Below are positions 4,780 to 33,449 of a stretch of DNA of 64,000 nt, piece after piece (the first letter of the stretch is position 1; each line of letters starts with the position of its first letter). The DNA comes from Candidatus Binatia bacterium (GTDB lineage Bacteria; Desulfobacterota; Binatia; HRBIN30): the NCBI GenBank assembly GCA_937925685.1, contig CALAMI010000010.1:124001-188000 (forward strand), read 5' to 3'. The position numbers and the translations under genes were made by a program. Below the pieces are notes generated by a model. That model did not search any database and was not told the DNA's origin. It saw only the letters and a program-made list of their open reading frames with translations.

Positions 4780-6018
4780 CTAGGTGAGCAATGCGGTGAG
4801 TCGGCGCCCGTTCCAGACTCGTTGCCAAGCCCGTGATACGTCGTCTCTCGTCAGGCTTGCCATGAGAACTTCAATCTCTTCTGGAAGCGGGAAGCCGAGG
4901 AGCTGATCTTCAGCCAGAGTAACGGCACGGTCTAACTGGCTATCCTCGAGGAGACCGTAGCTAAAGCGTAGTTTTTTGCGCGCTCGTTCGAATTCCTCCT
5001 CGGTGAAGCCGGCTTGGGCGGCTTCGGTGCAAATCGCTTCGATCGTCTCGCACAAACGATCCACGGAAGACGGTGGGCAACTGGCCCCAATGGTGAACAG
5101 CGCCCAATCGGGTCCCCACGCGGATCCGGTGTCTACCGCGTAACCCAAACCACGGCGCCCACGAATCTCCTGAAACAAACGGCTGTCTGGAGCGTCCCCG
5201 AGCACTTCGAGTGCGGTTGCGGCTGCGAAAAAGTCGGGAAACGATGGAGGTGCTTCGATGAGAAAGGTCACATAGCCAACGGTTCCTTCTTCTCTCCGCC
5301 GAAGAGTACCCGAGCGACCTGGACCAACCGGCGGTGGCGTTGGTGCGGGTAGCGGCTGCCCACAGAAAAGGCGTTCGACCGTTTGGACGATCCGTTCCGG
5401 GTCGTTACCCCCAGTGATAGCGAGAGAAGTAGCCTCGTGGACGAAGTGGCGCTGGAGGAATGCCTGAATTGTCTCCGCATCGAGATGGGCGAGCGAGCGC
5501 ACCGTGCCGACGACGGGATGCGCTAACGCTCCGCGAAAAAATCGGCAAAAGGCGCTTTGTTCCAAGCTTTGCACAGGGTCGCTGCGATCGCCACGAAGCT
5601 CGTCGAGCACGACACGCCGTTCCACCTTCCAGCGCTGCTCGTCGACGACGGTATTGTAATATTGTTCGGCGAGTAGCCACAGCGCACGCTCCGTATCCGG
5701 GTTGAAGCACTCGAAGGTCAACGTAATTGTCTCGTAGCGTGTGCAGGCATTATGTTGGCCACCCAATTGTGCTGCCTGCTCAGTCAAGGTCCGATGGTCA
5801 AGGTTCTTAGTGCCCTGAAACATCATGTGCTCTGCGGCATGGGCGAGCCCTGGATGAAGCCCATCGAAGCGAGCTCCAGCTCTGATGCTGAGCGCAATGG
5901 CGGTCAGTGGCCCTCGATGGTATTCCGCAGTCACCTTGAGTCCCCGGTGTCGAGCGTAGACTGGCTTCCGTCGACGAAAACGCGTAGGTGAAGGAGACGT
6001 TCGTGGAACCTTCGTCAT
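4780..6018 (-). CDS. M16 family zinc metallopeptidase (processing-peptidase/pitrilysin type)
   Basis: 412 residues, the size of a single M16B unit (two roughly 200-residue halves). The inverted zinc motif HxxEH is present as HAAEH (60-64), with the distal Glu ligand at about 140 in VVLDELRGD. The second half contains GRRGLGYAVDTG and the usual hydrophobic core. No signal peptide is seen. The start overlaps the pyrE stop (ATGA), so translation is probably coupled. M16B enzymes degrade or process peptides and often work as a homodimer or with an inactive partner. No partner gene is adjacent, so a homodimer is the simplest reading. Confidence 0.9.
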   Translation of the reverse strand: MTKVPRTSPSPTRFRRRKPVYARHRGLKVTAEYHRGPLTAIALSIRAGARFDGLHPGLAHAAEHMMFQGTKNLDHRTLTEQAAQLGGQHNACTRYETITLTFECFNPDTERALWLLAEQYYNTVVDEQRWKVERRVVLDELRGDRSDPVQSLEQSAFCRFFRGALAHPVVGTVRSLAHLDAETIQAFLQRHFVHEATSLAITGGNDPERIVQTVERLFCGQPLPAPTPPPVGPGRSGTLRRREEGTVGYVTFLIEAPPSFPDFFAAATALEVLGDAPDSRLFQEIRGRRGLGYAVDTGSAWGPDWALFTIGASCPPSSVDRLCETIEAICTEAAQAGFTEEEFERARKKLRFSYGLLEDSQLDRAVTLAEDQLLGFPLPEEIEVLMASLTRDDVSRAWQRVWNGRRLTALLT

Positions 6019-6614
6019 GTCGATAAAAACCGTACGGCTGAGTCGTAATCTGTGGTCGTCACCATACCCATGTCGAGGAGTTCCCGGAGAAGTTCGCGGA
6101 CGGTGATAAGACGGTGACTTCTGATCCCCTGCTGCTCCAGCACCCCAGCGCCGCCCTCCTCCCGATCGACCACGACAAGGATGTCCGTTACCACCAGGCC
6201 AGCGGAGCGGAGCAAGGCGAGCGCTTCGAGTTTGGCGGTCCCGCTGGTGAGTACATCGTCGACCACAAGGGCGTGGCTTCCAGGCTGGAAATACCCCTCG
6301 ATCTGACGCTCCGTGCCATAGGTCTTGGCTTCCTTTCGCGGGTAGACAAGCGGTTTGTCTGCCGCGAGGGCCATCGCCACAGCTAAAGGGATGCCCGCGT
6401 AGGGAATAGCGGCCAGGCAGTCGTAGTGGAGTGGTTCAGCTGCTGATAGCAACCACTCCCCCACTTTTCGGAGCATCCGGGGAAAGGCAATAATGCCGCG
6501 TAAATCCACGTAAAAAGGCGACTGACGGCCGTCCTTCAGGCGAAAACTGCCGAAACGTAGAGCCGCAATTTCGCCAAGAAGCTCAGCCACCTCGCGTGTA
6601 CTCGGTCGAGTCAT
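6015..6614 (-). CDS. pyrE: orotate phosphoribosyltransferase
   Basis: 199 residues from ATG 6614, chosen because it forms an ATGA overlap with the stop of the preceding gene; an in-frame ATG at 6668 would lie wholly inside that gene. The PRPP-binding loop is ALVVDDVLTSGTAK (residues 115-128). The catalytic loop YPRKEAKTYGT (91-101) carries the conserved lysines, and QSPFYVDLRG (31-40) is typical of bacterial PyrE. The enzyme makes orotidine 5'-phosphate from orotate and PRPP in pyrimidine synthesis. It is embedded in a run with an exported propeller protein upstream and a peptidase downstream, which is not the usual pyr neighbourhood. Confidence 0.95.
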   Translation of the reverse strand: MTRPSTREVAELLGEIAALRFGSFRLKDGRQSPFYVDLRGIIAFPRMLRKVGEWLLSAAEPLHYDCLAAIPYAGIPLAVAMALAADKPLVYPRKEAKTYGTERQIEGYFQPGSHALVVDDVLTSGTAKLEALALLRSAGLVVTDILVVVDREEGGAGVLEQQGIRSHRLITVRELLRELLDMGMVTTTDYDSAVRFLST

Positions 6615-8368
6615 CCCTTGCGCGAGCGCCGCGACAAAATCCACCAGGCTAAGGGGGCGAGTGCCCACACGGAGATTGGGGATGCACTAACGTCGCCAGT
6701 TTGCGGGTCTACACGGCATCCGCAGCCATCACCTCCCCCGCGAACTGCCCCCGGCGGAGACGGTGCAGTGCGAGTGGTTGTGGCCGTTGGCGTATTCACC
6801 CGCGGGGTAAATGAGTCAGTGGGTGCGGGGGACGCGGTCATCGTTGCCGTGCCGATGGGTGGCGCCGTCTCCGTGGGTGGTGCCGTCTCCGTGGGAGAGG
6901 GCGTCGGTGTGTTTACACGGGTCGGCTCAAGAGTCGGGGAAAGACTGGGCGTCATGGTGCTGGAAGGCGTCGGGGTCGGTGGAATTTCCTCCGGCGTCCA
7001 AGTCGGCGTTGCTCCTGTAGGTGGTTTTACGAACAGCGGGTTGAGCGTGAGATAGGCGTCCGCGACTCTGTCCGTGTCCGTTGGGCTCAGGCGGGCCTTC
7101 GACAAAAACACGATTCGGCTGCCATCGGCAGAAATGCTGGGCGCGTAGCTGTCGCCGTCAACTTGCCCACCTGCGGCCGGCTTACTGACAAGACGCACCT
7201 CCCCATCAGTCAAGTCGACTACGAACACGTCCTCGCCTGGCCATTCGTCGTCCTCCGATAGATTCGACGCAGCTGACTGAAACACCAAGAAGCGCCCTTC
7301 GCGATCGAGGCTTGGGGAAACCGATGGAGCGTTAGCGATCTCGCCCCGTTGGTTCCGACTCACTAGACGGGTGGTGCCCAATATGCGGTCGCGAAGAAAG
7401 ATTTGGGATCGCCGACCAGTATTGCCGTCTAAGTTCGTGGCGCGTGATGAGAACGCCACAAATCTGCCATCGCCGCTCAAGGCAAGTGTTGCAAGCTCGA
7501 CCTGGCTCGGGCCGTTGGCCTCCGCTCCGTTGCTTGCGACGCTTACCCGTTCGATGGTCTCGTTGCACCGATCTCGCACAAAGACGTCGCGCGCCTCGTT
7601 GCGGTCCTGCACAACCAGGTTGCTGGCGTCGGAGAAGAAGGCAACCACGCAGCCGTCAGTACTAATCGCTGGTCCGGCGCTGGGCCCGTTTGCCGTGCGA
7701 ACCTCGTTCGCTCCAAGGCCGGTGAGGGTCATGGCCGTCACCGAGCCTGACTCGCGATCAAGGACAAATACATCACTCGCTTCATTGCGATCGTTTGACA
7801 CGAGGTCGTCGGCTTGTGAGGCAAACGCTACCCATCGGGCTTCGGGAGAAATTGCCGGTGGCAGGTCAGGGACGGTGCCACCACCGAGTCCCTCGTTTGC
7901 CAGAGTCAAAATGGTTGTCCGGCGGGACGTGCGGTCGAACAAAAATAGGTCGGGGGTACGATTGAAGTCCCCAGTGACCAAATTATTCGCAGCCGAACCG
8001 AATACGGCAACCGTAGCGTCGTCGCTCAGAACGCCGGGGAAGCTACCATCGTTTGGATCTCGCCCGAGGAAAGAGACGCTCACACGTTCGGCGATGCGGC
8101 TTTCGACGTCGATCACGAACACGTCGCTCCTACCATTGCGGTCCCCGTCAATGAGATTGCTTGCCGCCGTCAACAAAAGGACGAAGCTCCCATCCGCGTT
8201 GGGACGGGCAAAAAGCACGTCGGCGTCAAGACCATCCCCCAGTACCGGGACGCTGATGCGCACGGGCTCCCGAAGAACCTCAGCGCCCGAGGTTGCGGCG
8301 CCCACGGAACTGACGAAGAGCAGCAGCGCCGCGCGTCGATGTACCCTCCCCAACCAAGTTTGCTCCAT
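6611..8368 (-). CDS. exported PD40/TolB-like beta-propeller protein with Thr/Pro linker and Cys-TM-Arg tail
   Basis: 585 residues from ATG 8368, chosen because GGAGG sits 7 bases upstream. The N-terminus is basic then hydrophobic (RRAALLLFVSSVGAATSGA), a signal peptide. The body has about seven repeats of roughly 60 residues with the core SNL-(x)2-DRN-(x)3-DVFVxDR (for example DRNGRSDVFVID), typical of PD40-like propeller blades. After this comes about 85 residues dominated by Thr, Pro and Ser, then GDGCGC, a hydrophobic segment (ISVWALAPLAWWIL) and SRRSRKG. That tail looks like a MYXO-CTERM-type sorting signal. Function unknown; likely cell-surface or secreted. Its stop overlaps the pyrE start. 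Confidence 0.75.
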   Translation of the reverse strand: MEQTWLGRVHRRAALLLFVSSVGAATSGAEVLREPVRISVPVLGDGLDADVLFARPNADGSFVLLLTAASNLIDGDRNGRSDVFVIDVESRIAERVSVSFLGRDPNDGSFPGVLSDDATVAVFGSAANNLVTGDFNRTPDLFLFDRTSRRTTILTLANEGLGGGTVPDLPPAISPEARWVAFASQADDLVSNDRNEASDVFVLDRESGSVTAMTLTGLGANEVRTANGPSAGPAISTDGCVVAFFSDASNLVVQDRNEARDVFVRDRCNETIERVSVASNGAEANGPSQVELATLALSGDGRFVAFSSRATNLDGNTGRRSQIFLRDRILGTTRLVSRNQRGEIANAPSVSPSLDREGRFLVFQSAASNLSEDDEWPGEDVFVVDLTDGEVRLVSKPAAGGQVDGDSYAPSISADGSRIVFLSKARLSPTDTDRVADAYLTLNPLFVKPPTGATPTWTPEEIPPTPTPSSTMTPSLSPTLEPTRVNTPTPSPTETAPPTETAPPIGTATMTASPAPTDSFTPRVNTPTATTTRTAPSPPGAVRGGGDGCGCRVDPQTGDVSASPISVWALAPLAWWILSRRSRKG

Positions 8369-8423
8369 CCGCATCCCTCCAAGGCCAAGAGCCGCATAGC
8401 ACAGGAATTGCCCGAGGAACAAC

Positions 8424-9449
8424 GTGGCATGCACTCAGGAAATCGCTACAACGCCAAAGATGCTTTGGCAGCGCAGCAACGTGGTTAAGTCAACCAGGCT
8501 TTGCGAGATTGGTTTAGGCAATGTAGCGGTTGCCGTGGAATCGCTGAGCCACCGCTACGGTGATCGTCGGGCCCTGGATAATGTGTCGTTTGAGGTGCAG
8601 CGGGGCGAAATGTTCGCCCTTTTGGGGCCGAATGGTGGGGGAAAGACCACGTTATTCCGGATTCTGTCAACGTTGATCCTCCCGGCGAAAGGAGCTGGCA
8701 GGGTTTTTGGTGTACCTTTAACTGAGCCGTGGCGCGTTCGCCCGTATCTCGGGGTCGTATTCCAACAGCCAAGCCTGGATTCAAAGTTGACGGTGTGGGA
8801 GAATCTTCTGGCGCATGCGTACCTGTATGGTTTGCGGGGCTTGTCAGTGCGCCAGAGAGCGCGCGAGCTCTTGGAGCGATTTGGTTTGCAGGAACGTTGC
8901 AACGAACTCACCGAGAGGCTCTCGGGCGGATTGCAGCGCCGCGTGGAATTAGCCAAGTGTCTCCTTCCCCGGCCTCCGCTGTTGCTCCTTGATGAACCTT
9001 CCTCGGGGCTGGACCCTGGCGCGCGCAGGGAGTTTTTCCTCTTATTGCGCGAGTTACAGAAGCGCGACGGGACCACGGTTGTCTTCACGACCCATTTCAT
9101 CGAAGAGGCCGACCGTTCCGACCGTGTGGCGATTTTGCATCGCGGCAAATTGGTTGCTCTAGGATCTCCGACGTCTTTGAAAAGCGAAGTCGGTGGCGAC
9201 GTGCTGGTGATCCAGGGTGAGCACCCTGCTGATTTAGCCGACGCACTGAGGCGGGAGTTCGGCTTAGCTACTCAGGTTGTCGACGGCACAGTGCGCGCCG
9301 AGTGCGCGCGGGCGCACGAGTGGATTCCGCGGCTTGTTAACCGATTCGGGCCGGGTATCTCGCTCATTTCTTACGGGCGGCCCACCTTGGAAGACGTTTT
9401 TGTCCATCACACGGGCCAGCGTTTTTGGGCAGGAGAGCGGGATCGCTGA
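8424..9449 (+). CDS. ABC-2 type exporter, ATP-binding subunit
   Basis: 341 residues from GTG 8424 (GAGGA 5 bases upstream); the true start may be a little downstream since homology begins near residue 35 (VESLSHRYGDRRAL). Walker A is GPNGGGKTTLF, the signature LSGGLQRRVELAK, and Walker B LLLLDEPSSGLD, followed by the switch His in TTHFIEEAD. The long C-terminal extension after the nucleotide domain is typical of DrrA/NodI-type ATPases that power ABC-2 exporters. The permease follows 7 bases downstream. Substrate could be a lipid, polysaccharide or drug; nothing nearby decides this. Confidence 0.9.
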   Translation: MACTQEIATTPKMLWQRSNVVKSTRLCEIGLGNVAVAVESLSHRYGDRRALDNVSFEVQRGEMFALLGPNGGGKTTLFRILSTLILPAKGAGRVFGVPLTEPWRVRPYLGVVFQQPSLDSKLTVWENLLAHAYLYGLRGLSVRQRARELLERFGLQERCNELTERLSGGLQRRVELAKCLLPRPPLLLLDEPSSGLDPGARREFFLLLRELQKRDGTTVVFTTHFIEEADRSDRVAILHRGKLVALGSPTSLKSEVGGDVLVIQGEHPADLADALRREFGLATQVVDGTVRAECARAHEWIPRLVNRFGPGISLISYGRPTLEDVFVHHTGQRFWAGERDR

Positions 9450-18302: not shown

Positions 18303-19130
18303 TCAGGTTATTACCAGCGGGGGAACGACGCACCAAGACAAGGGACCTCGTCCGGGGTCGAGATCAACGATGCAGACTGCCAAGGCTTCGTCACTATGGG
18401 TGGGCCATAGCTGGTCGAACACCAAAAAGTGGAAGCGGTATGTGCTACCGTCGGTTTCCACTCTCGCTAGAGCGTAGCTCTCGCTTTGGGGCGGAAGCCG
18501 CAACGGTAGATTCAAAACTGCAGACTTCCACGACCGGTACAATTCTAATCCCCGCTCCCACGCCTCCCGTACTTCGGGAGACCACGCTGCCATTGGCCCC
18601 GGCCATGTCGCCAAGCTCACCTGACGTAAACTCTCGAGCTGAGCGTTAGTTTTCTCCGACGCGGAAACGAACACTGTAGGCAGTGAGCCGTAGCGTCCAG
18701 CCGGAGCGGACCATTCGGAGATCGCCCCTAAGGGTGGAGGATGAACTAGCTGCTGACGTGGTTGATCAAGCAAGTATCCAGATGCAGCCCGATCTGTAGC
18801 TTCAGAAGCGGAAGAAAACGCGCTTATCCGCTCTAGCCAGTTGCCTTCTTCCTCAGGGTGCCAGGGATCGAGCGACGAAGGGGGAGGACCGACTGGCCAG
18901 TTTAATTCTGACGCCTCATCTAGCGCAGGCCGCTCGTCGACCTGCGCCACAGGCTCAGGTGCAGTTAGTGGGGATCCCAATTCAACGCGGGATCGGCCTA
19001 CTGCTCGAGCCGCCCCCGCGTTAGCCCACGCAGTAGCCAGCGGAATGAAAAGAATGAGCGCGAGCGCGACACCGAGGAACAACACCTCGCCGAGGGTGAC
19101 AGCAGGTGCAGTGGAAACCAGTTTTTCCAT
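18303..19130 (-). CDS. hypothetical membrane-anchored protein
   Basis: 275 residues, not recognised. The N-terminus has one hydrophobic helix (about 13-38, GEVLFLGVALALILFIPLAT) with no obvious cleavage site. Then comes an acidic, Pro/Ser-rich stretch to about residue 130, and a C-terminal region of about 130 residues that looks folded (QVSLATWPGPMAAW, YRFHFLVFDQLWP, SWCVVPPLVIT). It is divergent from the subtilisin-like protease gene, with only 119 bases between the two starts, so the two probably share a control region. A role with that protease or with its export is possible but unproven. Confidence 0.6.
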   Translation of the reverse strand: MEKLVSTAPAVTLGEVLFLGVALALILFIPLATAWANAGAARAVGRSRVELGSPLTAPEPVAQVDERPALDEASELNWPVGPPPSSLDPWHPEEEGNWLERISAFSSASEATDRAASGYLLDQPRQQLVHPPPLGAISEWSAPAGRYGSLPTVFVSASEKTNAQLESLRQVSLATWPGPMAAWSPEVREAWERGLELYRSWKSAVLNLPLRLPPQSESYALARVETDGSTYRFHFLVFDQLWPTHSDEALAVCIVDLDPGRGPLSWCVVPPLVIT

Positions 19131-19249
19131 TGCGCGCTTGGGAAAGCGAAAAAATGCTTCCTTTGCAAGAATGTTGGACTGGAATTTGGCGGCCGATGTT
19201 GGATTGTCTGATAGCTCTCTGGTATCCCGTGGCGTCGGGAGAGGACCGG

Positions 19250-22200
19250 ATGAGACTACGACGATGGCGGCTGGTGGTTTGGGTGGGAACAGTGTTCGCG
19301 ACGGCTACGCCGACAGCGGGCGAATTTCCCTACCCTTCGAATCCGCGACCTTGCCGGGAAGGCGAGAACCCGAGCACCTGCATTCGCTCAGATGATTTCG
19401 CTTCGTATCTGTTTTTGCCCGCGTCGGATCCACCGGTAGTTCCAAACGATTTCGTGCAGAGCCTGGCGTGGAAACTGGGCAGTGGCACGACCGGTAACCC
19501 GGAAATCGATCAAAATCCCCAGGAATTGTTCGGAATCACCGGCAGCAGTGTGGATCGCGCTTGGCAAGTCACGACAGGTCGGCCCGATGTGGTCATTGCC
19601 ATTCTAGATTCTGGAATTCGCTGGCAGCGTCCACTGCCGGACTTAGTGGCCAAATTTTACTTGAATCGAGGTGAACTGCCGATTCCGGAGGGGTCCACGA
19701 ACAAATTAGACCCATGGGACCGCAACGGAGATGGCGTCTTCAATATTCGCGATTACGAGTCCAGCGCGGGCTGGCCGCAGGACTCCCGGGTTCGTGATGA
19801 GAATGACAACGGGTTGCTCGATCCAGAGGATCTGATCTTTCTGTTTTCCGACGGCCACGACGGGGACGGCAACGGGTACGTAGATGACATCTCTGGTTGG
19901 GATTTTTTTGAGGACGATAACGATCCTTTGGATGAGGTCGACTATGGACACGGGACGGGCGAAGCTCATGACTCGACTGCAGAGGCAAACAACGGTGGGG
20001 CGGTCGGGACCTGTCCAAATTGTATGGCGTTGATGGTACGGGTTGCCGACAGCTTCGTCGCGGAAGTCAACGCCTTTGCCCGGGGGGTGCTCTTTGCGGT
20101 GGACAGCGGAGCCATGGTGATTCAAGAGGCACTGGGAACGTTGAACCATTCTAGTTTCGGCCAGGCTGCCATCGACTATGCGTATCGACGTGGGGTCGTG
20201 GTCATCGCCTCGGCCGCCGACGAGGAGTCAGCTCATCACAACTACCCCGCAGCTTATGAACGCACGGTTGTGGTAAATTCGGTTACTCGGTATGCATCTC
20301 TTGGCGGGCTCTCCATGTCGCCGCCTTCCTACCTGTACCTTAATGGGTGCACCAATTTTGGCCCACACATTGCGCTGTCCGTGCCTTCCACAGCCTGTTC
20401 GAGCGAGGCCACAGGCTTGGCCGCCGGGGTTGCTGGGCTTGTGTATTCTGCAGCGCGAAACGAAATCGATCGTGGGCGCTTGACCCGCTATCGAGCGGAC
20501 GATGGCAAACTTACAGCCCATCCCCTTTCGACTAACGAAGTAAAACAAATATTAACGCAAAGCGCAGACGACGTGAATTTCGATGCCCGCCCCAGCGTGG
20601 GTTTGCCCCAAAGTTACCAGGTCGTTCTCCAGCTGCCCCAGGGCATTGGATCGCAACGTTTCCCATCCATTGCTGGGTTCGACCAATACTTTGGCTACGG
20701 AAGAATCAACGCTCGACGGGCTGTCGAGGCGGTTATCGAGGGCAGGATCCCGCCCGAGGCGGAGATCGCGAGTCCGTTGTGGTTTGCTATGGTTTCGCCA
20801 GACGACGGCACCTTAGATATCCGGGGGCGTGTGGCGGCAAACCGAGCAGGGTCGTTTCAGTGGCAGCTTGCCGTCGCACCGGGAGTGCAGCCTCGGGAGG
20901 AGGAATTTCTCCTCGTGGCCTCGGGTACCGAAGTTCAAGCTCGGGTTGGACTGCTTGGTCAGATCGATGTGCGCGCCTTAGCTTCGCGCATGCCCTACGG
21001 TACTTCTGGGGGGCCAGTAACGGAGGATGGCAGGCCCGACCCCGACCGCTTCACCGTTACCGTTCGATTACGAGCCATCGACGATCGAGGCAACATCGGG
21101 GAAGACCGGCGCGCCTGGTTCCTTTATCATGACCCAGAAGTGTGGCCGGGAACCCCGAGGATGCTCGGCAGCGATGGCGCAGCCGCTCCTGTTTTCGCAG
21201 AAATTACTGGAGACGGCGTAGACGATTTAGTGATTGCTACAGCGGACGGATCCGTGCACGTGCTGACCGGGGCGGGTTTGGAGGAAGCCACCGGGTGGCC
21301 CGTTTACACCGACCTCATGGAGGTTCATAGCGACTCTCCTGCATTCCGTAGTGGCGAACTGCCACACCCCCACGCACCGATTCTTGGGACGCCTGCGGTG
21401 GGTGACCTTGACCGAGACGGGTTCCCTGAAGTGGTTGCGGCAGACCTTTACGGCAAGGTCTACGTGTGGGACAAAAGCGGGCGCAGACGCCCTGGGTTTC
21501 CCGTACGGAGTCGGTTGGAGTTTTCTTTCCCGTTGAGATCGGAACGCGAGGGATTGCCGGAAATGCAACTTGTGCCGGACCGTGTTCATCGTCTCGACTC
21601 AGACAACCGCCTCGCTCGTGGGTTTATGGGGGGGCCAGTGCTCGGTAATCTGGATGGCTCCGCTGATGGGTCCCTCGAAATAATCGCTGGCTGCATGGAC
21701 CGTCACATTTACGCGTGGTTCCTGGATGGGCGGCCAGTCCCAGGTTGGCCCGTTTTGCTGAAGGACCCGAACAAAGTGGCCTCGGTGGATCCGATCACCA
21801 ATCGTGTCCGGCTAATCCCTGGAAGTGGGCAACGAATGGGCAGCAAAATTGTTGTGCCGCCGTCTTTGGGCGACATCGATGGTGACGGTTCGCTTGACGT
21901 GGTGGCCAGCGTGAATGAGGCGTATAGAGAGCGCCCCAATGCGGTGATCACCAACGTCGTGGTGAACTTCCTGCAAGCCTCTGGCGCTTTAGAGAGCGGT
22001 AACACGAGGTTGTATGCGGTCCATTCATCCGGGGCTACTAGAGGCGCGAATTCCCAGTCTTTTGGGTGGAATCCCGATGCTTTTTTAGAAGGCTGGCCCG
22101 TACGCCTGGCAATGCTGACCACGGAGTTGCTTCCGGTAGTGGGAACCGGCTCTAATGGCCCGCCGGCGCTTGCGGACTTAGATGGGGATAGCCGTTTGGA

Positions 22201-23560
22201 GGTTGCTGGATTTTCGATATTGGGGCCAGCGTACGTGTTTCGATGGACGGGAGAGTCTTTCTTGGGGATCGAACGTGGCTCGATACCGCGAACATTACTG
22301 GCGGACGTTTTTGGCGCAGAAAGCCGCGCGCTAGACAGCCCCAGCTACCCGGCGCTCGGCGCGCCCGTGATCGCAGAGATGTTCGGTGCGGGTCGCGGAT
22401 ATCACTTGCTTGCACCGGCTGCTGGCTTGGGCAAGCTGCTTGACGCGAATTTACCAGCGCAACAGTTTCCGGCTGAGAATCATCTAGCTCTTTGGGAGGT
22501 CGCCCGGGCCGATGGTTCGCCGGCAGAGGGAAAACTTGCGCCGGCGTTCCCGCAGTTGGTAAACGATCTCCAGTTCTTTGTGGCGCCGATTGCCGTGGAC
22601 ATTAACGGGGATGGTGTTGCAGAAGCCATCTGGGGAAGTGGAGTGTACGACCTCCGCGCTGTCGATCCTCTAGGAAGGTGGCCACGCGGCTGGCCGAAGT
22701 TCACCGGTGGTTGGTCGATTGGATCGCCCGCGGCAGGAGACATCGACGGGGATGGTACTCTCGAAATTGCCGCAGTAACTCGCGAAGGGTACTTATTTTT
22801 ATTTTCGACGGCTGGTTCCCGCTGCGGTCACCTGCCGTGGAGGCAGTACCATCACGACCCGTGGGGTAGCGGCAATTATCATACCGATGCTTGGCCGCCA
22901 GCCCCGCCTGTTGGCCGCATCCAGCTTGTTGACACACGGCAGGTCATGCTTTTAGGAGATGCGACCCCGGGGGATGACCAGTTTTGCGGTAAGCCAGCGC
23001 GAATTGAGCTTCGATTTGCGTTGGCTCCGCTCGATGAGGCAGCAGCATTTGAGCGGGCGAGTGTGTTGGTCGCTAGCGTGGCGGGTACCGAGTCAGGTCG
23101 GAGCCGGCGGCTAGCAGTTTCCGCAACGCTTCCTTCGTCACTAACTGGCCGCGTGTATCTTGCTGCTAGAGCCGAGGATGAGAGGGGAAATCGCTCACGA
23201 ATCGTAGCGTACGGCGCTCTCGAATTGCCTACGGTGGTTCCCACAAGAACACACACTCCGACGCCGGCTGCGTCGAGGGCCCAAACCCCAACGCCGACGT
23301 CCACGTATACCCGAGTTCAAGAAGCAGCCGTTACAGCGACTCGGCCGCCAGGGCCAACGCCGTTGCCTACGGTAACGACAACCGCCATGTCACCAACCCC
23401 TTCAGTGATCCCTATCGCGACAGCTGCGTCAAGCCACCCGAACGGATGTCAGGTTGCAGTCAGCGACTGGGGTGGGAGTGCTTGGGCACTGCTTGTCTCA
23501 TTGACTGGATTTATTGTGGCCCGGAAGCGAACTTTACGGAGTCGCTTCTTCAGGCGGTAA
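19250..23560 (+). CDS. subtilisin-like (S8) exoprotease with FG-GAP repeats and Thr/Pro linker-Cys-TM-Arg tail
   Basis: 1436 residues from ATG 19250 (GAGAGGA just upstream); a basic start and hydrophobic stretch give a signal peptide ending near residue 24. The S8 domain has Asp120 in AILDSG, His234 in YGHGTG and a predicted Ser385 in ACSSEATG, where the usual G-T-S-M-A reads C-S-S-E-A. Between Asp and His are calcium-type loops such as DRNGDGVFN and DGDGNGYVDD. About seven FG-GAP/VCBS-like repeats follow (DITGDGVDDLVIA, DLDRDGFPEVVAA, DIDGDGTLEIAAV). The end is a Thr/Pro linker, NGC, a hydrophobic segment and RKRTLRSRFFRR. It is convergent with, and 10 bases from, the T2SS locus. Confidence 0.88.
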   Translation: MRLRRWRLVVWVGTVFATATPTAGEFPYPSNPRPCREGENPSTCIRSDDFASYLFLPASDPPVVPNDFVQSLAWKLGSGTTGNPEIDQNPQELFGITGSSVDRAWQVTTGRPDVVIAILDSGIRWQRPLPDLVAKFYLNRGELPIPEGSTNKLDPWDRNGDGVFNIRDYESSAGWPQDSRVRDENDNGLLDPEDLIFLFSDGHDGDGNGYVDDISGWDFFEDDNDPLDEVDYGHGTGEAHDSTAEANNGGAVGTCPNCMALMVRVADSFVAEVNAFARGVLFAVDSGAMVIQEALGTLNHSSFGQAAIDYAYRRGVVVIASAADEESAHHNYPAAYERTVVVNSVTRYASLGGLSMSPPSYLYLNGCTNFGPHIALSVPSTACSSEATGLAAGVAGLVYSAARNEIDRGRLTRYRADDGKLTAHPLSTNEVKQILTQSADDVNFDARPSVGLPQSYQVVLQLPQGIGSQRFPSIAGFDQYFGYGRINARRAVEAVIEGRIPPEAEIASPLWFAMVSPDDGTLDIRGRVAANRAGSFQWQLAVAPGVQPREEEFLLVASGTEVQARVGLLGQIDVRALASRMPYGTSGGPVTEDGRPDPDRFTVTVRLRAIDDRGNIGEDRRAWFLYHDPEVWPGTPRMLGSDGAAAPVFAEITGDGVDDLVIATADGSVHVLTGAGLEEATGWPVYTDLMEVHSDSPAFRSGELPHPHAPILGTPAVGDLDRDGFPEVVAADLYGKVYVWDKSGRRRPGFPVRSRLEFSFPLRSEREGLPEMQLVPDRVHRLDSDNRLARGFMGGPVLGNLDGSADGSLEIIAGCMDRHIYAWFLDGRPVPGWPVLLKDPNKVASVDPITNRVRLIPGSGQRMGSKIVVPPSLGDIDGDGSLDVVASVNEAYRERPNAVITNVVVNFLQASGALESGNTRLYAVHSSGATRGANSQSFGWNPDAFLEGWPVRLAMLTTELLPVVGTGSNGPPALADLDGDSRLEVAGFSILGPAYVFRWTGESFLGIERGSIPRTLLADVFGAESRALDSPSYPALGAPVIAEMFGAGRGYHLLAPAAGLGKLLDANLPAQQFPAENHLALWEVARADGSPAEGKLAPAFPQLVNDLQFFVAPIAVDINGDGVAEAIWGSGVYDLRAVDPLGRWPRGWPKFTGGWSIGSPAAGDIDGDGTLEIAAVTREGYLFLFSTAGSRCGHLPWRQYHHDPWGSGNYHTDAWPPAPPVGRIQLVDTRQVMLLGDATPGDDQFCGKPARIELRFALAPLDEAAAFERASVLVASVAGTESGRSRRLAVSATLPSSLTGRVYLAARAEDERGNRSRIVAYGALELPTVVPTRTHTPTPAASRAQTPTPTSTYTRVQEAAVTATRPPGPTPLPTVTTTAMSPTPSVIPIATAASSHPNGCQVAVSDWGGSAWALLVSLTGFIVARKRTLRSRFFRR

Positions 23561-23570: not shown

Positions 23571-24500
23571 TTAGCGGATTTTGGGCCGCGACAATGTTCC
23601 GGTTATAGTCACCGGAGCGTCGGGTTTGCCGGAGCTGGGTTTCGGCAACAGCGCTAAAACGGCCTTAACCGTATCCGAGGTTTGCGCCCCGGGTGCCACC
23701 GTGAGTCGGAGGTTGAGCAAGCTTTCTCCGTACGGCTCACGCAGGGTGATAAAACCGGACCCTTGGATCATGAGGTCACCGGTAGCCGCAATATCCGTAA
23801 GCTCCACTTTGCCGGGGGTAACGCGAACCTTCGCCTTTAGTTGCTTGAGATGCAGATCGGGCACTGGCCAGCCATTAATTTTCGCTCGCTCCAAACGCAG
23901 GTCTTCCAGGAACAATTCGCCACTCGCCTGTCCCTGCTGGAATGCCGTACCTCGCAATTCGAACGTGAGGTTGCCCCCAATTTGTCCTCCGACTTGCCCT
24001 TCTTCCAACTGCGTTTGGAGGGTGCGGTACCGTAGCAACTGCAGGTTCCGCCAGGCGATAACCCCGTTTATTCCTGTGTCACGGTAGGTAAGGCTACCCT
24101 GCATGTGCCCACCATACAATTCGCCGCCGATGCTTGCGGAGAAAAAATTACCCTTAATCCACTCCGACCACAGTGGGCGCGCCCATACGCGGGAGAGCTC
24201 AAGAAGCGGAACCTGTCCTTCGTCCAATCCGCCAAGCCGAAGGCCCACCAGCTCATAACCTTTGCGGAGCGAGAGGCCAGCGCCCTGAACTCGTAGCGGT
24301 AGAGGCCCGCGGTCGAGGTTATGCAGCGCCCTCCGGATAAGTAAGTCGTGCGGAAACGTGAAAAGAAAGGCAACCAGAAAAACAAGTAGAGTATAAACAG
24401 CGTAAAGCCAAAATAACCGGCGAGTGAAAAACTCTGGCAATGCCAGAGGGGGGAAAGAAAGCCCGCCAAGACGTCCGTTGAAAACTCGCATCGTTTGCAA
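23571..24500 (-). CDS. gspN: type II secretion system protein GspN
   Basis: 309 residues. There is one N-terminal membrane helix (about 31-50, LFWLYAVYTLLVFLVAFLF), then a long beta-rich periplasmic domain with repeated hydrophobic/charged alternation (SIGGELYGGHMQGSLTYRD) and PVTITGTLSRPKIR at the end. This is the GspN form found in delta-type and spirochaete T2SS loci and resembles AsmA-like repeat proteins more than the short E. coli GspN. It is the last gene of the gsp run, 2 bases after gspM. Its role in the assembly is not established. Confidence 0.82.
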   Translation of the reverse strand: MQTMRVFNGRLGGLSFPPLALPEFFTRRLFWLYAVYTLLVFLVAFLFTFPHDLLIRRALHNLDRGPLPLRVQGAGLSLRKGYELVGLRLGGLDEGQVPLLELSRVWARPLWSEWIKGNFFSASIGGELYGGHMQGSLTYRDTGINGVIAWRNLQLLRYRTLQTQLEEGQVGGQIGGNLTFELRGTAFQQGQASGELFLEDLRLERAKINGWPVPDLHLKQLKAKVRVTPGKVELTDIAATGDLMIQGSGFITLREPYGESLLNLRLTVAPGAQTSDTVKAVLALLPKPSSGKPDAPVTITGTLSRPKIR

Positions 24501-24502
24501 CT

Positions 24503-25114
24503 CTAACCCGAAGTAGCAGCGATCGGACGGTCGCTTGGTTTTTCCGGAGATTTCTCCGCTGGCTTGAGTACCGCCACGATGGCTTGGACATCGAAGCTGT
24601 ATGGGTCATTTGGGCGCTTTTTGATCGCCACACGGGAGAAGTGGAGGGGATGGTCCCCTTTTTCCACTCGATGCAGGAGATCCACGATCTGCGGGAGGGC
24701 TACCTGAGTTAGCTTGATTTCTACCATTTCCTCTAAAAATTCGGGAGCTTCAGGCTTCGGCCGGGTGGACGGATTCAACGAAAGAATTTTATCGCGGCTT
24801 ACAGCGGCGGTCACGACTCCTTGGAGGTAGCCCAACAAATTGAAGTTTGGATCAACCTCGGAGATATCGCCGTAGGCCTCGAGCTGCCGAAGCAACTCCA
24901 AATAGTACTCCCTTTCCCTTTGTAGTTCGACAAGCTCCTTTTCCTTGAGGGCGATGCGCCGGGACAATTGCTCCATGTTAACCTGGAGCGGGTCCCAGAT
25001 GAATGTGTACCCTAAAATTAGGACCGTAGACACAGCAGCGACAACAAGCAGTAGCCGCTCGCGCGGTGCTAACCGATCGAAGTAACGTAAAAGGGGCGCA
25101 AAATCGAACATCAA
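24503..25114 (-). CDS. gspM: type II secretion system inner-membrane protein GspM
   Basis: 203 residues: short cytoplasmic N-terminus, one membrane helix (about 18-36, RLLLVVAAVSTVLILGYTF), a coiled coil (about 40-75, rich in Leu, Lys and Glu) and a small ferredoxin-like periplasmic domain. This is the GspM/PilO plan. GspM pairs with GspL in the inner-membrane platform. The start overlaps the gspL stop (ATGA). Confidence 0.85.
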   Translation of the reverse strand: MMFDFAPLLRYFDRLAPRERLLLVVAAVSTVLILGYTFIWDPLQVNMEQLSRRIALKEKELVELQREREYYLELLRQLEAYGDISEVDPNFNLLGYLQGVVTAAVSRDKILSLNPSTRPKPEAPEFLEEMVEIKLTQVALPQIVDLLHRVEKGDHPLHFSRVAIKKRPNDPYSFDVQAIVAVLKPAEKSPEKPSDRPIAATSG

Positions 25115-26637
25115 CCTTTCCCGCTCGGGCGACCCGCACCAGGTAAGCCGGCCTTGTTCAGCGTCAGAATGATACGAAAGTCCACACGGCCATCCGGCGC
25201 AGTCTTTATGTCTTTCACTTGAACGTCAGCGAAATATTTCCCATTGGCGATAGCTTCGCGAATCGAATTCGGGGTGTCCAAGGAGTCGGTGTGTGCACGA
25301 ATTTTGATTTCCTCGGTGTCCATGACATACTCGTCCACCTCGAGTTTGAGTGATTCCGGAATGGCCGTACTGATCGCGTGGAGCGCGTCGATGGCCGTGG
25401 CCCCACTTGGCGGGGCCACGCTCCCTAGCAGCTTCAATCTTTTTTCGGCAGCCGCAATCTCTTCTCGAATTTGGCGACTCTCGTCGATTACTCGCTGCAC
25501 GTCCGGTAAGGTTTGTCGGAATACATGTCGGATTTGGCTGTTAACCGCCGCGAGCTGAGCCTCAAGGTGGCGGTAGTTCAAGTACGTCTGCAGAACGAAC
25601 AGCCCCAAAACAAACATTGCCAGGGTGGCCGTCCCTAGCAGCGCCCGCCGGAGTTCCTCTTGACCTCGGTGGTACGCAAACTCGCCGCTTCGAAAATTGA
25701 GACCGTAACATCGATCGGGTTGGATCTCACGGAGCGCTAAGCCAATGGGTACGGCAAAGGGTGTCAATTTTTCTCGAAGGGTAGCGGGTAGTCCCTTAAG
25801 GGGCGATTCCTGGATGCGCAGCACTTCCATAGCCAGCTGCTCACGAAGCTGGTGCGCAAGCCGATCGAAGTAAATCCCTTCGCCTGCGAGCACACAGCGC
25901 GTGCCCTCCTCCAGGCCCCCTCCATCGAGTGCCAGAAGAGTCCACCGAAGTTCCGCCATCAGGTCGCCGACGACCTCTTCAAGGATTTCCGGGCGACCAT
26001 TGCCTTCCGCTCCCTCGGCACCATCGGCAGTGTACGAGGCGTTTACTGGTGTAATGGTTCGTAAGCCAACCAGCGTTCCGCCGCGATACAAGGCCACCGT
26101 GAGTCGATCGATCTCGCCGCCGATGAAAACGGTCCGTTCTGCTATTGGCAGGTCTAAGAGCTGGAGTACATTGAGAGCTGCGAGAGGAGCAAAGTCGACG
26201 ATTTTGGGGTCCAAACCCGCGGCCTGTAGCACATTTAAGTGCCGTTGCAGCTCCGCACGAGGGACCAGAGCTGCGAGCACGTGGCTGCCCGTTTTGTCGC
26301 GCAGGAGCACTTGATAAGAAACAACAACTTCTTCGAGATCGAAGGGAACCTGAGTTTCGAGCTCGTAAGGAACAGTCTGATCCAGGCGCTTACGATCTTT
26401 GAAAGGAAGAAAGAACGTCCGAAGGGTGATTACCTCGCCTGGCAGCGAGGAGACGACGGTGTGGGGCTGGAAGTTGATTTGCCGGACAAAGTTGCGCAGT
26501 GCTTCTTCGAGGTCGTCGGCTGACGACAAGGGCAACTCGTAGAGGTCTACGACCTTGTAGTCGCGAAAAGACGCCTCCACAAGGGCCGCACGTACCTCAT
26601 GGGCTTGAACTTCTAAAGCAAGGACGCGTTGGGGCAT
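25111..26637 (-). CDS. gspL: type II secretion system protein GspL (PilM-like plus PilN-like domains)
   Basis: 508 residues. The cytoplasmic actin-like domain (1-330) has VLALEVQAHEVRAALVE, DQTVPYELETQVPF and VFIGGEIDRLTVALYRGG. A membrane helix (about 345-362, LLGTATLAMFVLGLFVLQTY) leads to a PilN-like periplasmic domain with a coiled coil and a ferredoxin-like end. GspL recruits the GspE ATPase to the inner membrane and binds GspM. Position between gspK and gspM is canonical. Confidence 0.88.
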   Translation of the reverse strand: MPQRVLALEVQAHEVRAALVEASFRDYKVVDLYELPLSSADDLEEALRNFVRQINFQPHTVVSSLPGEVITLRTFFLPFKDRKRLDQTVPYELETQVPFDLEEVVVSYQVLLRDKTGSHVLAALVPRAELQRHLNVLQAAGLDPKIVDFAPLAALNVLQLLDLPIAERTVFIGGEIDRLTVALYRGGTLVGLRTITPVNASYTADGAEGAEGNGRPEILEEVVGDLMAELRWTLLALDGGGLEEGTRCVLAGEGIYFDRLAHQLREQLAMEVLRIQESPLKGLPATLREKLTPFAVPIGLALREIQPDRCYGLNFRSGEFAYHRGQEELRRALLGTATLAMFVLGLFVLQTYLNYRHLEAQLAAVNSQIRHVFRQTLPDVQRVIDESRQIREEIAAAEKRLKLLGSVAPPSGATAIDALHAISTAIPESLKLEVDEYVMDTEEIKIRAHTDSLDTPNSIREAIANGKYFADVQVKDIKTAPDGRVDFRIILTLNKAGLPGAGRPSGKG

Positions 26638-26661
26638 GAACTCTCGTGTGTCTCTGTTGCG

Positions 26662-27846
26662 CTAAAATTCACTTTGATCGCGACTCTCAAACTCTGGCTT
26701 GAATAAAACGGCCCCGGGCTCCTTTTGCCAGTACAACCGGGTGAGCTTCCATCGCGTTACTGTACCACCGGACATTCCTGGCTGCACCTGCCTTGGGTCC
26801 CGTCGAACAACCATTTCAGCCGAACGGCTGATGCCCCCCGTCCCGGTCATGGGGTTGATGTTGACGATGGCAGTGGCACGGATGGAATAAACATTGCTCC
26901 GCGCCCCGAGCATCATACGGGCACTGCGATACGCCGGATCCTGGTTGGTGGAAGCGGCATTGACAAGCGTGAGCACGTTACTGGCTTGCAAGACTTGCGT
27001 TTGGCGTTGTTGGATGATCTCTTCGACCACCTGGGCGTCACCGATGACTGCTGACAGGACTTCTCGAGGAGCTGTGTTAGCATTCACCTGACTTGGAAAC
27101 GGCCAGCCAAAGGCGGTGACAAAAGGTCTCAGGCGGCCCAGCTCAGCTGGGGTAAGAAAGCCTGGTACAGCAGTGACCTCGTCGAGTGAACCGAAGTACA
27201 AGGTCGTTAGCGGCGGCGGGGTGCCCGTTAGCCCCGGGGTTTGGACTCCCGGGGATCCATCTGTTGGAGTTGAGGTACCGGTGGTACTCGGGCTAAGCGG
27301 ACCGAAATAAAACTCGAAAAGTTGGTTCCAGTAATCATCGAGCGCGGTCATCGCGTCGGGGTGCGAGTCGATAAGCCGGCCGAGGGCAAACAACCAAGAC
27401 TGGTAACGCTGGGGTGACTGTTCTGGATTCGGGTTCATACGGCCGGCACGCCACTCCGCTTGGGTCTGCGGGCGGGTGAGATTAACGTTGATTTTGCCAC
27501 TCTCGTCCCAGATTTCCACTCGAAGGCGGGAGTTAGGGGGAAGCGTGATGAAGCCGCCGCCGTCGTCGATCTGGCACGCCCGACCTTCGCGTGCTTGCAA
27601 GGGGCACCACTCTTCCAGGAAGGAATCTGTGAGTGGATCCTGATCCTGGATCAGCAGCGCCTCGCCGAGAGCAATTCCCGAGCGAGCGAGCAATGCTGCT
27701 TGCAGGCTATGTACAGAATTGCGGGCCATCCGAGCGTCGATTTCGACGGAGAAAAAAAACTCCGTAACCGTGATGGTCAACAGCGCCACCACTAGAAGAG
27801 CCATGACTAAAGCCACCCCTCGCTCGCCTTGCTTATCATTAACCAA
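26662..27846 (-). CDS. gspK: type II secretion system minor pseudopilin GspK
   Basis: 394 residues from TTG 27846, preferred because GGAGG lies 8 bases upstream and the prepilin leader becomes short (LVNDKQGERG before VALVMALLVVALLTI). In-frame ATGs at 27885 and 27930 would give longer leaders inside gspJ. As is usual for GspK, the helix lacks Glu5. The large globular insert includes IWDESGKINVNLT, VPGFLTP and VNANTAPREVLSAVIG. GspK caps the pseudopilus tip with GspI and GspJ. A Thr/Pro/Gly-rich stretch near 27190-27290 (TPTDGSPGVQTPG) is an unusual insertion. Confidence 0.85.
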   Translation of the reverse strand: MVNDKQGERGVALVMALLVVALLTITVTEFFFSVEIDARMARNSVHSLQAALLARSGIALGEALLIQDQDPLTDSFLEEWCPLQAREGRACQIDDGGGFITLPPNSRLRVEIWDESGKINVNLTRPQTQAEWRAGRMNPNPEQSPQRYQSWLFALGRLIDSHPDAMTALDDYWNQLFEFYFGPLSPSTTGTSTPTDGSPGVQTPGLTGTPPPLTTLYFGSLDEVTAVPGFLTPAELGRLRPFVTAFGWPFPSQVNANTAPREVLSAVIGDAQVVEEIIQQRQTQVLQASNVLTLVNAASTNQDPAYRSARMMLGARSNVYSIRATAIVNINPMTGTGGISRSAEMVVRRDPRQVQPGMSGGTVTRWKLTRLYWQKEPGAVLFKPEFESRDQSEF

Positions 27847-28588
27847 GGGACGGACCTCCGGGACCTGGGGTTGGTGGCGGGACATACAGAAGAAGGTCGA
27901 CACGGGTGCTGAAATCGACGTAGCCGCCATTATTGTCGAGTAAGAAAAGTTGGATTTCCACTACAGGTGGCAGCCCCGGAGGCGGCTGCCCCGGTTGCGC
28001 AGGGGTCGTAGTATCCCAAGAGTTAACCCAAGAACCTGTTGTGGGATCCAGGTAACGCAAACGGAGGCCCGCGACCCGATCGACCAAATACACGTCGCTC
28101 ATTAGGGAATTTGCCGTGGTTTGGTTGTCGGTTGATGTATCCGCGGTGGCTTGGCTCAACGGATCCAACAAAATCTCCTCATGTCGCAAAAGGGCGTAGG
28201 CGCGGGGCACGTCGGGCATGGGTTCCAAAAGGTACGACACAAAAGCTCTACCCCCGCGGCGCGCACCCACGCTTCGTTCACGCCGAGTATCAAGAACAAA
28301 TCCGACTTGATCGGTCGGGACGGCGTCATTGCCAGGAACGCCAATGAACCAAATTGCCCCGCGGTTGGAGGCGCCGGGCGCCAACGCGCGCTCGAGATCA
28401 TCGGCCATGCGCATAACCGCATCGCGCCCGGCAGCGAACAGCTCTGCGCGCTCCTCACCGCGGTTCTTCCCGTCCAACGTACGCCAAAGAACTCCGTATA
28501 TAGTGGTAGCCATGATCGCGAAAAGGGCGATCGCAACCAGCAGTTCCAGCAAGGTGAAGCCAGTGTGACTAGGTTTACTGTGCCGCAT
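27839..28588 (-). CDS. gspJ: type II secretion system minor pseudopilin GspJ
   Basis: 249 residues from ATG 28588, where the prepilin leader MRHSKPSHTG precedes FTLLELLVAIALFAIM (cleavage before Phe, with Glu5). The start lies 14 bases inside the end of gspI. The globular part (RADDL-like MADDLERALAPG, GFVLDTRRE, DRVAGLRLRYLD, PPVVEIQLFL) fits GspJ. It ends in a Pro/Gly-rich tail (VPPPTPGPGGPSLG). It is part of the tip complex of the pseudopilus. Confidence 0.87.
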   Translation of the reverse strand: MRHSKPSHTGFTLLELLVAIALFAIMATTIYGVLWRTLDGKNRGEERAELFAAGRDAVMRMADDLERALAPGASNRGAIWFIGVPGNDAVPTDQVGFVLDTRRERSVGARRGGRAFVSYLLEPMPDVPRAYALLRHEEILLDPLSQATADTSTDNQTTANSLMSDVYLVDRVAGLRLRYLDPTTGSWVNSWDTTTPAQPGQPPPGLPPVVEIQLFLLDNNGGYVDFSTRVDLLLYVPPPTPGPGGPSLG

Positions 28589-28973
28589 CGCGAACAAAAA
28601 AGGTGACTTCGCACGCGTTGAGATTTCTTTGGTCCCAAAAGACACGAAGGACCACCTGACGCATTCCATCCAGTCCTGTGGGGAGAACTTCTTGATCATA
28701 AAAGAACCCCGGATAGCCATCGATCGGACCAGTTTCGCTGCGCACGCTATCGACCCCTTGTTGCAAGGCCTGATAGTGCACCAAGCTGGCTCGCTCGCGT
28801 GCAAGGAGTACGGCGCGAGCCAAATTTTGGTCGTAGATGAGGGTAGCAAGGTTGCGGGCGTGCCAGCCAAGAAGCGTCACAAACGCAATGGCAAGAATTG
28901 CCAAGGCGATGAGGACTTCCAGTAACGTAAAGCCCTTTTGGTGAACCACTTGGCCCATCAATCTAGGTGCCAT
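28575..28973 (-). CDS. gspI: type II secretion system minor pseudopilin GspI
   Basis: 132 residues from ATG 28973; ATG 28958 (MGQVVHQKG) and ATG 29003 are alternatives. The leader ends in HQKG before FTLLEVLIALAILAIAFVT, a standard type IV prepilin-like signal. The short globular part with LARAVLLARERASLV and DGMRQVVLRVFW fits GspI, which nucleates the pseudopilus tip with GspJ and GspK. Overlaps gspH upstream and gspJ downstream. Confidence 0.85.
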   Translation of the reverse strand: MAPRLMGQVVHQKGFTLLEVLIALAILAIAFVTLLGWHARNLATLIYDQNLARAVLLARERASLVHYQALQQGVDSVRSETGPIDGYPGFFYDQEVLPTGLDGMRQVVLRVFWDQRNLNACEVTFFVRDAAQ

Positions 28974-29553
28974 AGCTTGGTTCCCAGTAGCCGCTTTTGC
29001 CACGGAGGCGTTGGGCCCGCGGATCGAACCACATCGTATGAGCCTCTCGATGAGTGACCAGGTGGATCACAACGGGTTCAATCGACCCGTCGGGATAAAA
29101 AACGGTAAAGATGCTCCCTTGGGCTACTTTGATCCCTTGCAAGGGTAGAGAGACGTCCGCGATCAACACGGTTTCCCCGAGCCTAACGCCTCGCGCGAGG
29201 GTGCCGACCTCGGAGACAAACTGGGCCAAGTCCATTGTACCGGCCTCGTCCAAAGCGGCCCAATAGCGCTGCTGGTCTAGATCGAAGTGAAGCCTGTAGG
29301 CGACACCGCTGAGAATAGCTTGGTTGCGAAGATACCGAAAGGTTAACTCCAGGCGATGCGCGTGCGCCAAGAGTTCGGCACGATCACGGTCGCGAAATCG
29401 TGGCAAGGCAACCACAAGTACCACCGATAACAGCAGGAGCACGAGGGTGACCTCCAGCAGAGTAAACCCGGATCGTTGCACATCTCGGTAGTTTACCCGC
29501 TCGCCGCTTTCCCTGGCATTTCCGATGAAGAGGTCGAAGGAACGTAACATCAC
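28963..29553 (-). CDS. gspH: type II secretion system minor pseudopilin GspH
   Basis: 196 residues, with a long 27-residue stretch before the prepilin cleavage site (RDVQRSG before FTLLEVTLVLLLLSVVLVV). The globular domain (LELTFRYLRNQAILSGVAYRLHFD, IFTVFYPDGSIEPVVIHL) fits the GspH/FimT family. It is the first gene after the gap that splits the gsp locus in two. GspH joins the pseudopilus shaft to the tip. The start is uncertain because several Met codons lie close together. Confidence 0.85.
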   Translation of the reverse strand: MMLRSFDLFIGNARESGERVNYRDVQRSGFTLLEVTLVLLLLSVVLVVALPRFRDRDRAELLAHAHRLELTFRYLRNQAILSGVAYRLHFDLDQQRYWAALDEAGTMDLAQFVSEVGTLARGVRLGETVLIADVSLPLQGIKVAQGSIFTVFYPDGSIEPVVIHLVTHREAHTMWFDPRAQRLRGKSGYWEPSYGT

Positions 29554-30358: not shown

Positions 30359-30451
30359 CGCCAGAACCTCCTTCGTGCCGACGCCGCGAACACTCTTTTT
30401 CATTGCGAGTGGCTTGAAAATAACACGACCAAATGCGGGCTCAAAGCGCGG

Positions 30452-33445: not shown

Positions 33446-33449
33446 AACT

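Follow-up and report, generated by a model that had tools for sequence, protein, structure and literature searches.

PMC11980579, the source of the known Myxococcus xanthus pathway, describes the C-terminal MYXO-CTERM signal as specific to myxobacteria and universal within the Myxococcota, and reports that its cleavage by the protease MrtX has been demonstrated. As presented there, the M. xanthus system (TIGR03901, NF040593) joins a tripartite tail, composed of a Cys motif (generically GCGC), a helix and an Arg cluster, to a glutamic protease of the CPBP family, in a genome that also encodes a type II secretion system (T2SS), and its secreted cargo includes hydrolases. We describe here a comparable system in a Candidatus Binatia bacterium of the order HRBin30. 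The stretch of DNA that we analysed (hereafter the window) comprises 64,000 nucleotides, positions 124,001 to 188,000 of contig CALAMI010000010.1 (assembly GCA_937925685.1), and it encodes both a propeller protein (P0001) with a tail of this type and a T2SS, while a CPBP protease with the same catalytic motifs (P0005) is encoded elsewhere in the genome.

Regarding the cargo, the nearest precedents that we found are the sortase-anchored scaffoldins of Ruminococcus (PMC11557425) and the noncellulosomal cohesin and dockerin proteins of anaerobic methanotrophic (ANME) archaea (PMC9012536). Similarly to the Ruminococcus cellulosome, the present order would combine a C-terminally sorted surface cohesin protein with many secreted proteins bearing dockerin-like modules. 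In Ruminococcus a sortase links the anchoring scaffoldin to the cell wall, whereas here the cell is presumed to be Gram-negative and the enzyme would be an intramembrane protease. Similarly to the ANME archaea, the cohesin and dockerin-like domains would operate outside cellulose degradation; the ANME passages mention no myxosortase anchoring, whereas here the putative anchors are tagged and belong to a conserved three-gene cluster.

The tail of P0001 and its counterparts across the genome

The gene of P0001 and the parts of its C-terminus are positioned in the window as follows.

6611-8434, minus strand: P0001, secreted PD40/TolB-type propeller protein with a MYXO-CTERM tail (TIGR03901 and PD40 matches)
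6731-7042, minus strand: Thr/Pro/Ser-rich linker of P0001, about 104 residues long as delimited here
6620-6730, minus strand: MYXO-CTERM tail of P0001, i.e., GDGCGC, hydrophobic stretch and Arg cluster (TIGR03901 match G000:C10:130620-130730)

A preliminary description of the window had placed this gene at 6611-8368 and had given its linker 85 residues. The open reading frame (ORF) extends over 6611-8434 on the minus strand, and 8368 is an internal position, the likely ATG start (MEQTW...), which is followed by a signal-peptide-like stretch. The Thr/Pro/Ser-rich makeup of the linker stood, with a length of about 100 residues by our cut, and the PD40 match scored 23.2 bits.

We consider it very probable that the P0001 tail is a MYXO-CTERM-type C-terminal sorting signal. 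First, the C-terminus reads, in this order, Thr/Pro/Ser linker, GGGDGCGC, hydrophobic stretch and RRSRKG, as had been described beforehand, so that the Cys motif, the helix and the Arg cluster are all present, together with an N-terminal signal peptide (the helices and signal peptides of P0001 and of P0002, the subtilase presented below, were called by eye). Second, the curated NCBIfam model TIGR03901 (MYXO-CTERM) scored 21.9 bits on P0001, above its cut-off of 20, which bears out the class proposed earlier, and it is the sole sorting-signal model matched by P0001 among the models listed at E 10. Third, P0001 came first among the 565 ORFs of the window (E 2.6e-4) with a profile whose 21 tails were all taken from other genomes. 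Fourth, the Cys motif reads GC[GS]CR[VI]DP in P0001 and in its four orthologues read (genomes G001, G002, G004 and G008). As compared to the own copy, these orthologues keep 78-89% identity over the nine-residue motif and 33-57% over the remaining tail, with 46-56% in the linker and 40-86% in the propeller; in the G008 orthologue the motif (78%) is better kept than the folded domain (40%).

The tail is not confined to P0001. In the own assembly (3.70 Mb; G000), which was compared with 14 control genomes, TIGR03901 gave nine matches at E 10, five of them above the curated cut-off (one only with its neighbours in frame), while in the controls it gave matches at E 10 in seven genomes and above the cut-off in none. 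Two of the nine own matches (L011 and L012) were rejected as tails on reading. A profile made from eight tails added L038 (E 7.3e-4) and L040 (E 0.73), which led to a working list of 10 tails: P0001, P0002, L004, L006, L007, L008, L009, L010, L038 and L040. Their carriers comprise the propeller, a subtilase, cohesin-like proteins, Cys-rich repeats, a matrixin-like protease and an FG-GAP protein. With the profile of 21 tails from other genomes, all 10 exceeded their own scored shuffles (192 to 200 of 200 for each tail), by a small margin for some of them (7.9 versus 7.7 bits for L040).

For searches across the lineage we used a profile of 31 tails (A3), 10 from the own genome and 21 from 28 loci, which left out four frames without a visible tail (L107, L111, L119 and L123) and three loci outside the order in which no Cys tail was seen (L113, L114 and L115). 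The rows were chosen by eye for a Cys motif, so the invariant Cys of A3 is in part a result of that selection. At E 0.01, A3 recovers nine of the 10 own tails and misses L009. Unlike the tails of M. xanthus, many tails of the order read GC-x-[VI] instead of GCGC. The genome-wide sorting signal suggested at the outset is thus borne out by 10 tails in the own genome, and it extends to the whole order.

The Thr/Pro run, which had been regarded as an element of the signal, fared differently. Linkers of this kind are common in the own genome (131 pattern matches versus 16 with the reversed pattern), and the tag occurred on one of 18 different frame ends with such a run (these stem from 30 of the 131 matches, and 13 of them are complete at a stop). 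The run is therefore not specific to the signal and was rejected as a part of it.

The subtilase that had been put forward as a second example is P0002.

19106-23560, plus strand: P0002, a secreted subtilase that has FG-GAP repeats and whose Cys-helix-Arg tail is weaker (Pfam scan and reading)
23432-23533, plus strand: putative tail signal of P0002, i.e., NGCQV, hydrophobic stretch and RKRT (A3 match G000:C10:147432-147533)

Its C-terminus reads Thr/Pro linker, HPNGC, hydrophobic stretch and basic residues, so that the layout with an NGC motif was found as described, and the orthologue in the congener G001 keeps a Cys-plus-helix tail. Its membership in the MYXO-CTERM class is weak. Judging from the sequences, the tail of P0001 is firm and that of P0002 is plausible only.

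A CPBP protease that accompanies the tails

The search for a sorting protease in the own genome covered the CPBP family and returned three proteins, P0003, P0004 and P0005. The scores of P0005 against the myxosortase models (curated cut-offs in brackets) are 109.7 bits for MrtP (250), 100.1 for MrtC (195), 96.7 for Mrt_core (100), 81.3 for MrtX (180) and 68.5 for MrtZ (325), so that P0005 is not assigned to any of the named subfamilies MrtX, MrtC, MrtP and MrtZ. On Mrt_core (NF040914) its homologues HR30, L077 and L080 score similarly (95.0, 94.2 and 89.9 bits); the best of the 15 members of its clade reaches E 1.1e-33, which would correspond to about 115 bits (an E-value of 8.4e-34 goes with 115.9 bits on this model), and P0003 and P0004 are far lower than P0005 (34.7 bits and not listed, respectively). 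The CPBP catalytic residues (EExxxR, H and HxxxN) are directly observed, since EE, R, H157, H192 and N196 do not vary across the 15 aligned proteins. In a tree of 36 rows, the proteases of the order and that of G016, a genome outside it, form one clade (99/97 support) apart from the Polyangium rows; the tree contains MrtC-type rows, none of the scanned rows passes MrtX, MrtP or MrtZ, and the one Polyangium row scanned is MrtC. The AlphaFold2 model of the HR30 homologue (predicted local distance difference test, pLDDT, 92.6; predicted template-modelling score, pTM, 0.87) has MmRce1 (4cad) as its best solved Foldseek match, with a probability of 0.96, a TM of 0.54 and a weak E-value of 0.38. Next to the protease gene lies pilT, a gene of pilus retraction, in 15 of 15 loci (14 order genomes, including the own locus G000:C8, L003, and G016), and an RlpA-like gene lies upstream of it in nine of these. 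We propose that P0005 is a predicted myxosortase-like protease, divergent from the myxosortases and close to them; it is the protease that the preliminary description expected in the same genome, albeit below the curated cut-offs. Rather than only two tailed proteins and no protease, the genome thus holds 10 tails and a myxosortase-like CPBP protease, both retrieved by the profile and family searches advocated at the outset.

In two records that carry the label of another phylum, Candidatus Wallbacteria (L079 and L082), CPBP proteins score above the Mrt_core cut-off (121.1 and 121.8 bits), a hint that more myxosortase systems may exist beyond the Myxococcota.

The tails and the protease co-occur. 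Among 58 relatives, every one of the 15 order genomes and not one of the 43 others had a TIGR03901 match above the cut-off. A3 yielded between three and 20 tails per order genome and at most one per other genome; these counts are lower bounds, with no more than 133 candidates scored per genome. Among 148 genomes of the class, all 15 members of the order and one of the 133 others (G091) had the tag above the cut-off, and the protease, at E 1e-10, was present in 14 of the 15 and in one of the 133 (G016). The association of tag and protease has a Fisher p of 1e-16 counted by genome and of 0.004 counted over 15 families. With 15 genomes that bear the tag and 133 that form the remainder, the class offers a natural contrast for phylogenetic profiling.

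By analogy with the M. xanthus pathway, on which the export route, lipidation and cleavage are modelled, we propose that P0001 would be exported by Sec and then held in the inner membrane by its tail helix, with the Arg cluster inside. The Cys of the tail would become lipidated, and P0005, acting as an intramembrane protease, would cut distal to it. The T2SS encoded in the window, which on the same analogy is the likely exporter of the tagged proteins, would move P0001 to the outer surface, where the lipid would anchor it. The T2SS genes observed are listed below.

23571-37253, minus strand: T2SS operon, C to M plus a gene at the N position, convergent with P0002
36330-37253, minus strand: T2SS C
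33450-36308, minus strand: T2SS D
31736-33445, minus strand: T2SS E
30452-31684, minus strand: T2SS F
29945-30403, minus strand: T2SS G
28963-29553, minus strand: T2SS H-like
28575-29003, minus strand: T2SS I-like
27839-28870, minus strand: T2SS J-like
26662-27930, minus strand: T2SS K
25111-26637, minus strand: T2SS L
24503-25114, minus strand: T2SS M
23571-24500, minus strand: gene at the T2SS N position (no Pfam match)

The order of these genes is similar in relatives. A conserved adjacency of the T2SS and the subtilase was considered and rejected: it was found only in the congener G001, and no P0002 match at E 1e-5 lies next to the T2SS in the six order loci that span the place (G007, G008, G009, G010, G011 and G012), while the G002 contig stops before it and the G003 and G006 stretches stop shortly past the operon.

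Several results weigh against the sorting pathway proposed here. First, P0005 lies below every curated myxosortase cut-off. Second, TIGR03901 gives no match on P0002 even at E 10, and the profile built without the own genome misses it (sixth among the window ORFs, 4.9 bits, E 0.83); its A3 match is circular, because P0002 was a seed of A3. Third, tag and protease are not always found together: G014 has tags without a detected protease (in an assembly of 1200 contigs), G016 has the protease with no tag detected (74% complete), and G044, which is not a member of the order, shows a CPBP match that is weak (E 1.9e-7) and no tag. Fourth, the p-value counted by genome overstates the co-occurrence, because the order is one clade and the co-occurrence may be a single event. 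Fifth, the T2SS, though needed for the proposed path, does not discriminate the tagged order, because it occurs throughout the class (GspD is matched in 57 of the 58 relatives, above the cut-off in 51). Sixth, the NCBI taxonomy files the named relatives L074, L075, L077 and L080 (recorded as Deltaproteobacteria) under Myxococcota.

With three CPBP proteins in the genome and P0005 under the curated cut-offs, a different enzyme (a rhombosortase, an exosortase, P0003 or P0004) might process the tails, P0005 having another role. From a protease search that covered the CPBP family, we find this unlikely, since P0001 matches MYXO-CTERM alone among the listed sorting-signal models, P0003 and P0004 fall far below P0005 on the myxosortase models, and the homologues of P0005 track the tag closely across the 148 genomes.

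A second alternative arises from tails without a Cys motif. The G091 match, judged by profile positions alone, spans only positions 15-33, i.e., the helix and the Arg residues. In G016, three subthreshold MYXO-CTERM matches show no Cys tail where read and A3 finds no tail at E 0.01, so that G016 was rejected as a second tagged lineage. Any hydrophobic helix followed by an Arg cluster would suffice for stop-transfer, and the P0002 tail could be of that plain kind; the P0001 tail might then simply keep a periplasmic protein in the inner membrane, unprocessed and with an incidental Cys. This appears improbable to us, because the P0001 orthologues preserve the Cys motif better than the remaining tail, and because nearly all tails recovered with the models come from the protease-bearing order. 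We therefore retain the processed sorting signal as our reading of the P0001 tail. As a separate observation, G016 (L027, L080 and L188) harbours a myxosortase of the clade in the same pilT setting, with no recognised tag or dockerin-like module.

As for the lineage, the order HRBin30 is placed in the phylum Binatota by PMC8262859, G002 (same genus) is identical to bacterium HR30 over 3.6 kb, and HR30 is unclassified in the NCBI taxonomy. We infer that the order belongs to the Binatota and, as this depends on that assignment, infer likewise that the divergent myxosortase system probably lies outside the Myxococcota. It would then differ from that of MrtX by its phylum, as it does by the separate clade and the lower model scores of its protease. 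In our literature search, no paper was found to join MYXO-CTERM with Binatota or Binatota with dockerin, and of the terms MYXO-CTERM, myxosortase, cohesin and Binatota only the first two were found together in one paper; the novelty of the tag and of a divergent protease beyond the myxobacteria is provisional. A second lineage, equipped with a divergent protease of its own, would provide an independent comparison set for the open questions of the pathway, above all the enzyme that lipidates the Cys.

Cohesins, dockerin-like modules and a three-gene cluster

Many of the tagged proteins read share one common domain between the signal peptide and the linker. A profile of 15 such domains gave 16 matches at E 10 against the sequences of solved structures, of which the nine best (E 5.7e-9 to 0.0053) bear the names of cellulosomal, scaffoldin or anchoring proteins. 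The Pfam model Cohesin (PF00963) matches eight of the 15 tagged domains at E 1, with L195 above its cut-off, and no Pfam match at E 0.01 was obtained with the own-genome L004 and L006 as whole proteins. Domains outside the profile also match it (L240, 2e-48; L250, 8e-46; L256, 1e-26), and no cohesin-profile match was found in P0001, in P0002 or in the tagged proteins of L252, L253 and L257. By these matches, many of the tagged proteins read are cohesins, and the signal appears often to carry cohesin-domain proteins in this order, which sets their cargo apart from that of M. xanthus. The 20 stretches searched with this profile were hand-picked, mostly for good tag scores, and most A5 domains stem from the same genes, so that the proportion of tagged proteins that are cohesins is not an unbiased figure.

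Two of the tagged frames have an unusual arrangement. In L010/L245 (G000:C7:335620) and L038/L186 (G000:C23:30574) the tag stands in mid-frame and is followed by a second signal-like helix, with a subtilase domain also downstream of the tag in L010. These internal tags resemble the internal MYXO-CTERM reported for MXAN_5598. The cohesin parts upstream of the tag are broken by a stop or a frameshift; the idea of intact polyproteins was therefore set aside, and the two may be decaying genes or assembly errors.

A dockerin is characterised by a duplicated calcium loop-helix without an entering helix, located near a protein end. A five-row profile of C-terminal modules from the own genome identified 52 dockerin-like modules there. 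Every one of the 15 order genomes has between 18 and at least 113 of them, and the 43 other relatives have one (four genomes) or none. The module is a duplicated loop-helix with halves of 57% mean identity (9.5% when shuffled), it ends at most eight residues from the C-terminus in 30 of 31 copies, and the stretch before its first loop resembles, by eye, a linker or a strand, with no obvious entering helix. Its anatomy is thus dockerin-like, and sequence alone leaves the name open.

The neighbourhood of these genes is also conserved. Across the 20 hand-picked stretches, in 10 of the 15 genomes (G000, G001, G002, G003, G008, G009, G010, G011, G012 and G014) a tagged cohesin gene has two dockerin-like genes directly upstream, all on one strand. 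In G004, G005 and G013 a contig end falls at or close to the tagged cohesin gene, and G005 shows one dockerin-like gene, while the stretches fetched from G006 and G007 show no tagged cohesin gene. In the Pfam-scanned clusters (L239, L243 and L251) one of the two partners is an FG-GAP protein, and the middle protein has a domain of its own. A role of the middle protein as a cohesin adaptor was considered, and the likeness of its domain to cohesin is too weak to call (at best E 0.056 over about 27 residues against solved structures, and 24 columns in a profile comparison). A Pfam scan of 13 dockerin-like proteins named FG-GAP, subtilase, PKD and PD40 domains, and no cellulase or other sugar-cutting enzyme.

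From the domain matches, the near-exclusive co-occurrence and the cluster, we see an even chance that these bacteria build a Gram-negative, cellulosome-like display, in which the myxosortase would anchor cohesin receptors in the outer membrane via their MYXO-CTERM tails and secreted proteins would dock onto them. Tens to more than 100 secreted proteins per genome (FG-GAP propellers, a subtilase and others) would dock by their C-terminal modules, and the core of the display would be the conserved cluster of a dockerin-like FG-GAP protein, a dockerin-like adaptor and a tagged cohesin. It is also quite possible, though we do not favour it, that the modules are EF-hand pairs of the ordinary calcium-binding sort, without affinity for cohesin, and that the neighbourhood reflects co-secretion only. 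Indeed, at E 0.5 Pfam recognised EF-hand_1 in 32 of 34 modules and Dockerin_1 (PF00404) in 20 of 34, below its cut-off of 22.9 wherever bits were displayed, and the best 60 of 347 solved-structure matches consist largely of calmodulins and other calcium-binding proteins, none of these 60 being named a dockerin. On the other hand, ordinary pairs would fit less well with the duplicated loop-helix build, the lack of an evident entering helix and the C-terminal position, or with a module that is nearly confined, among the 58 genomes, to the tag-bearing order and clusters with its tagged cohesin genes. If the cohesin-dockerin display exists, it would represent a diderm way of building surface complexes of exoproteins, and it would suggest roles for dozens of little-annotated secreted proteins in these uncultured bacteria.

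Lastly, P0001 has a neighbour in the window that is conserved.

6015-6668, minus strand: pyrE, orotate phosphoribosyltransferase (named by eye), neighbour of P0001 in a conserved order

The gene order P0001, pyrE, M16 also occurs in G004 and G008, and pyrE is a conserved neighbour that stands outside the mechanism.

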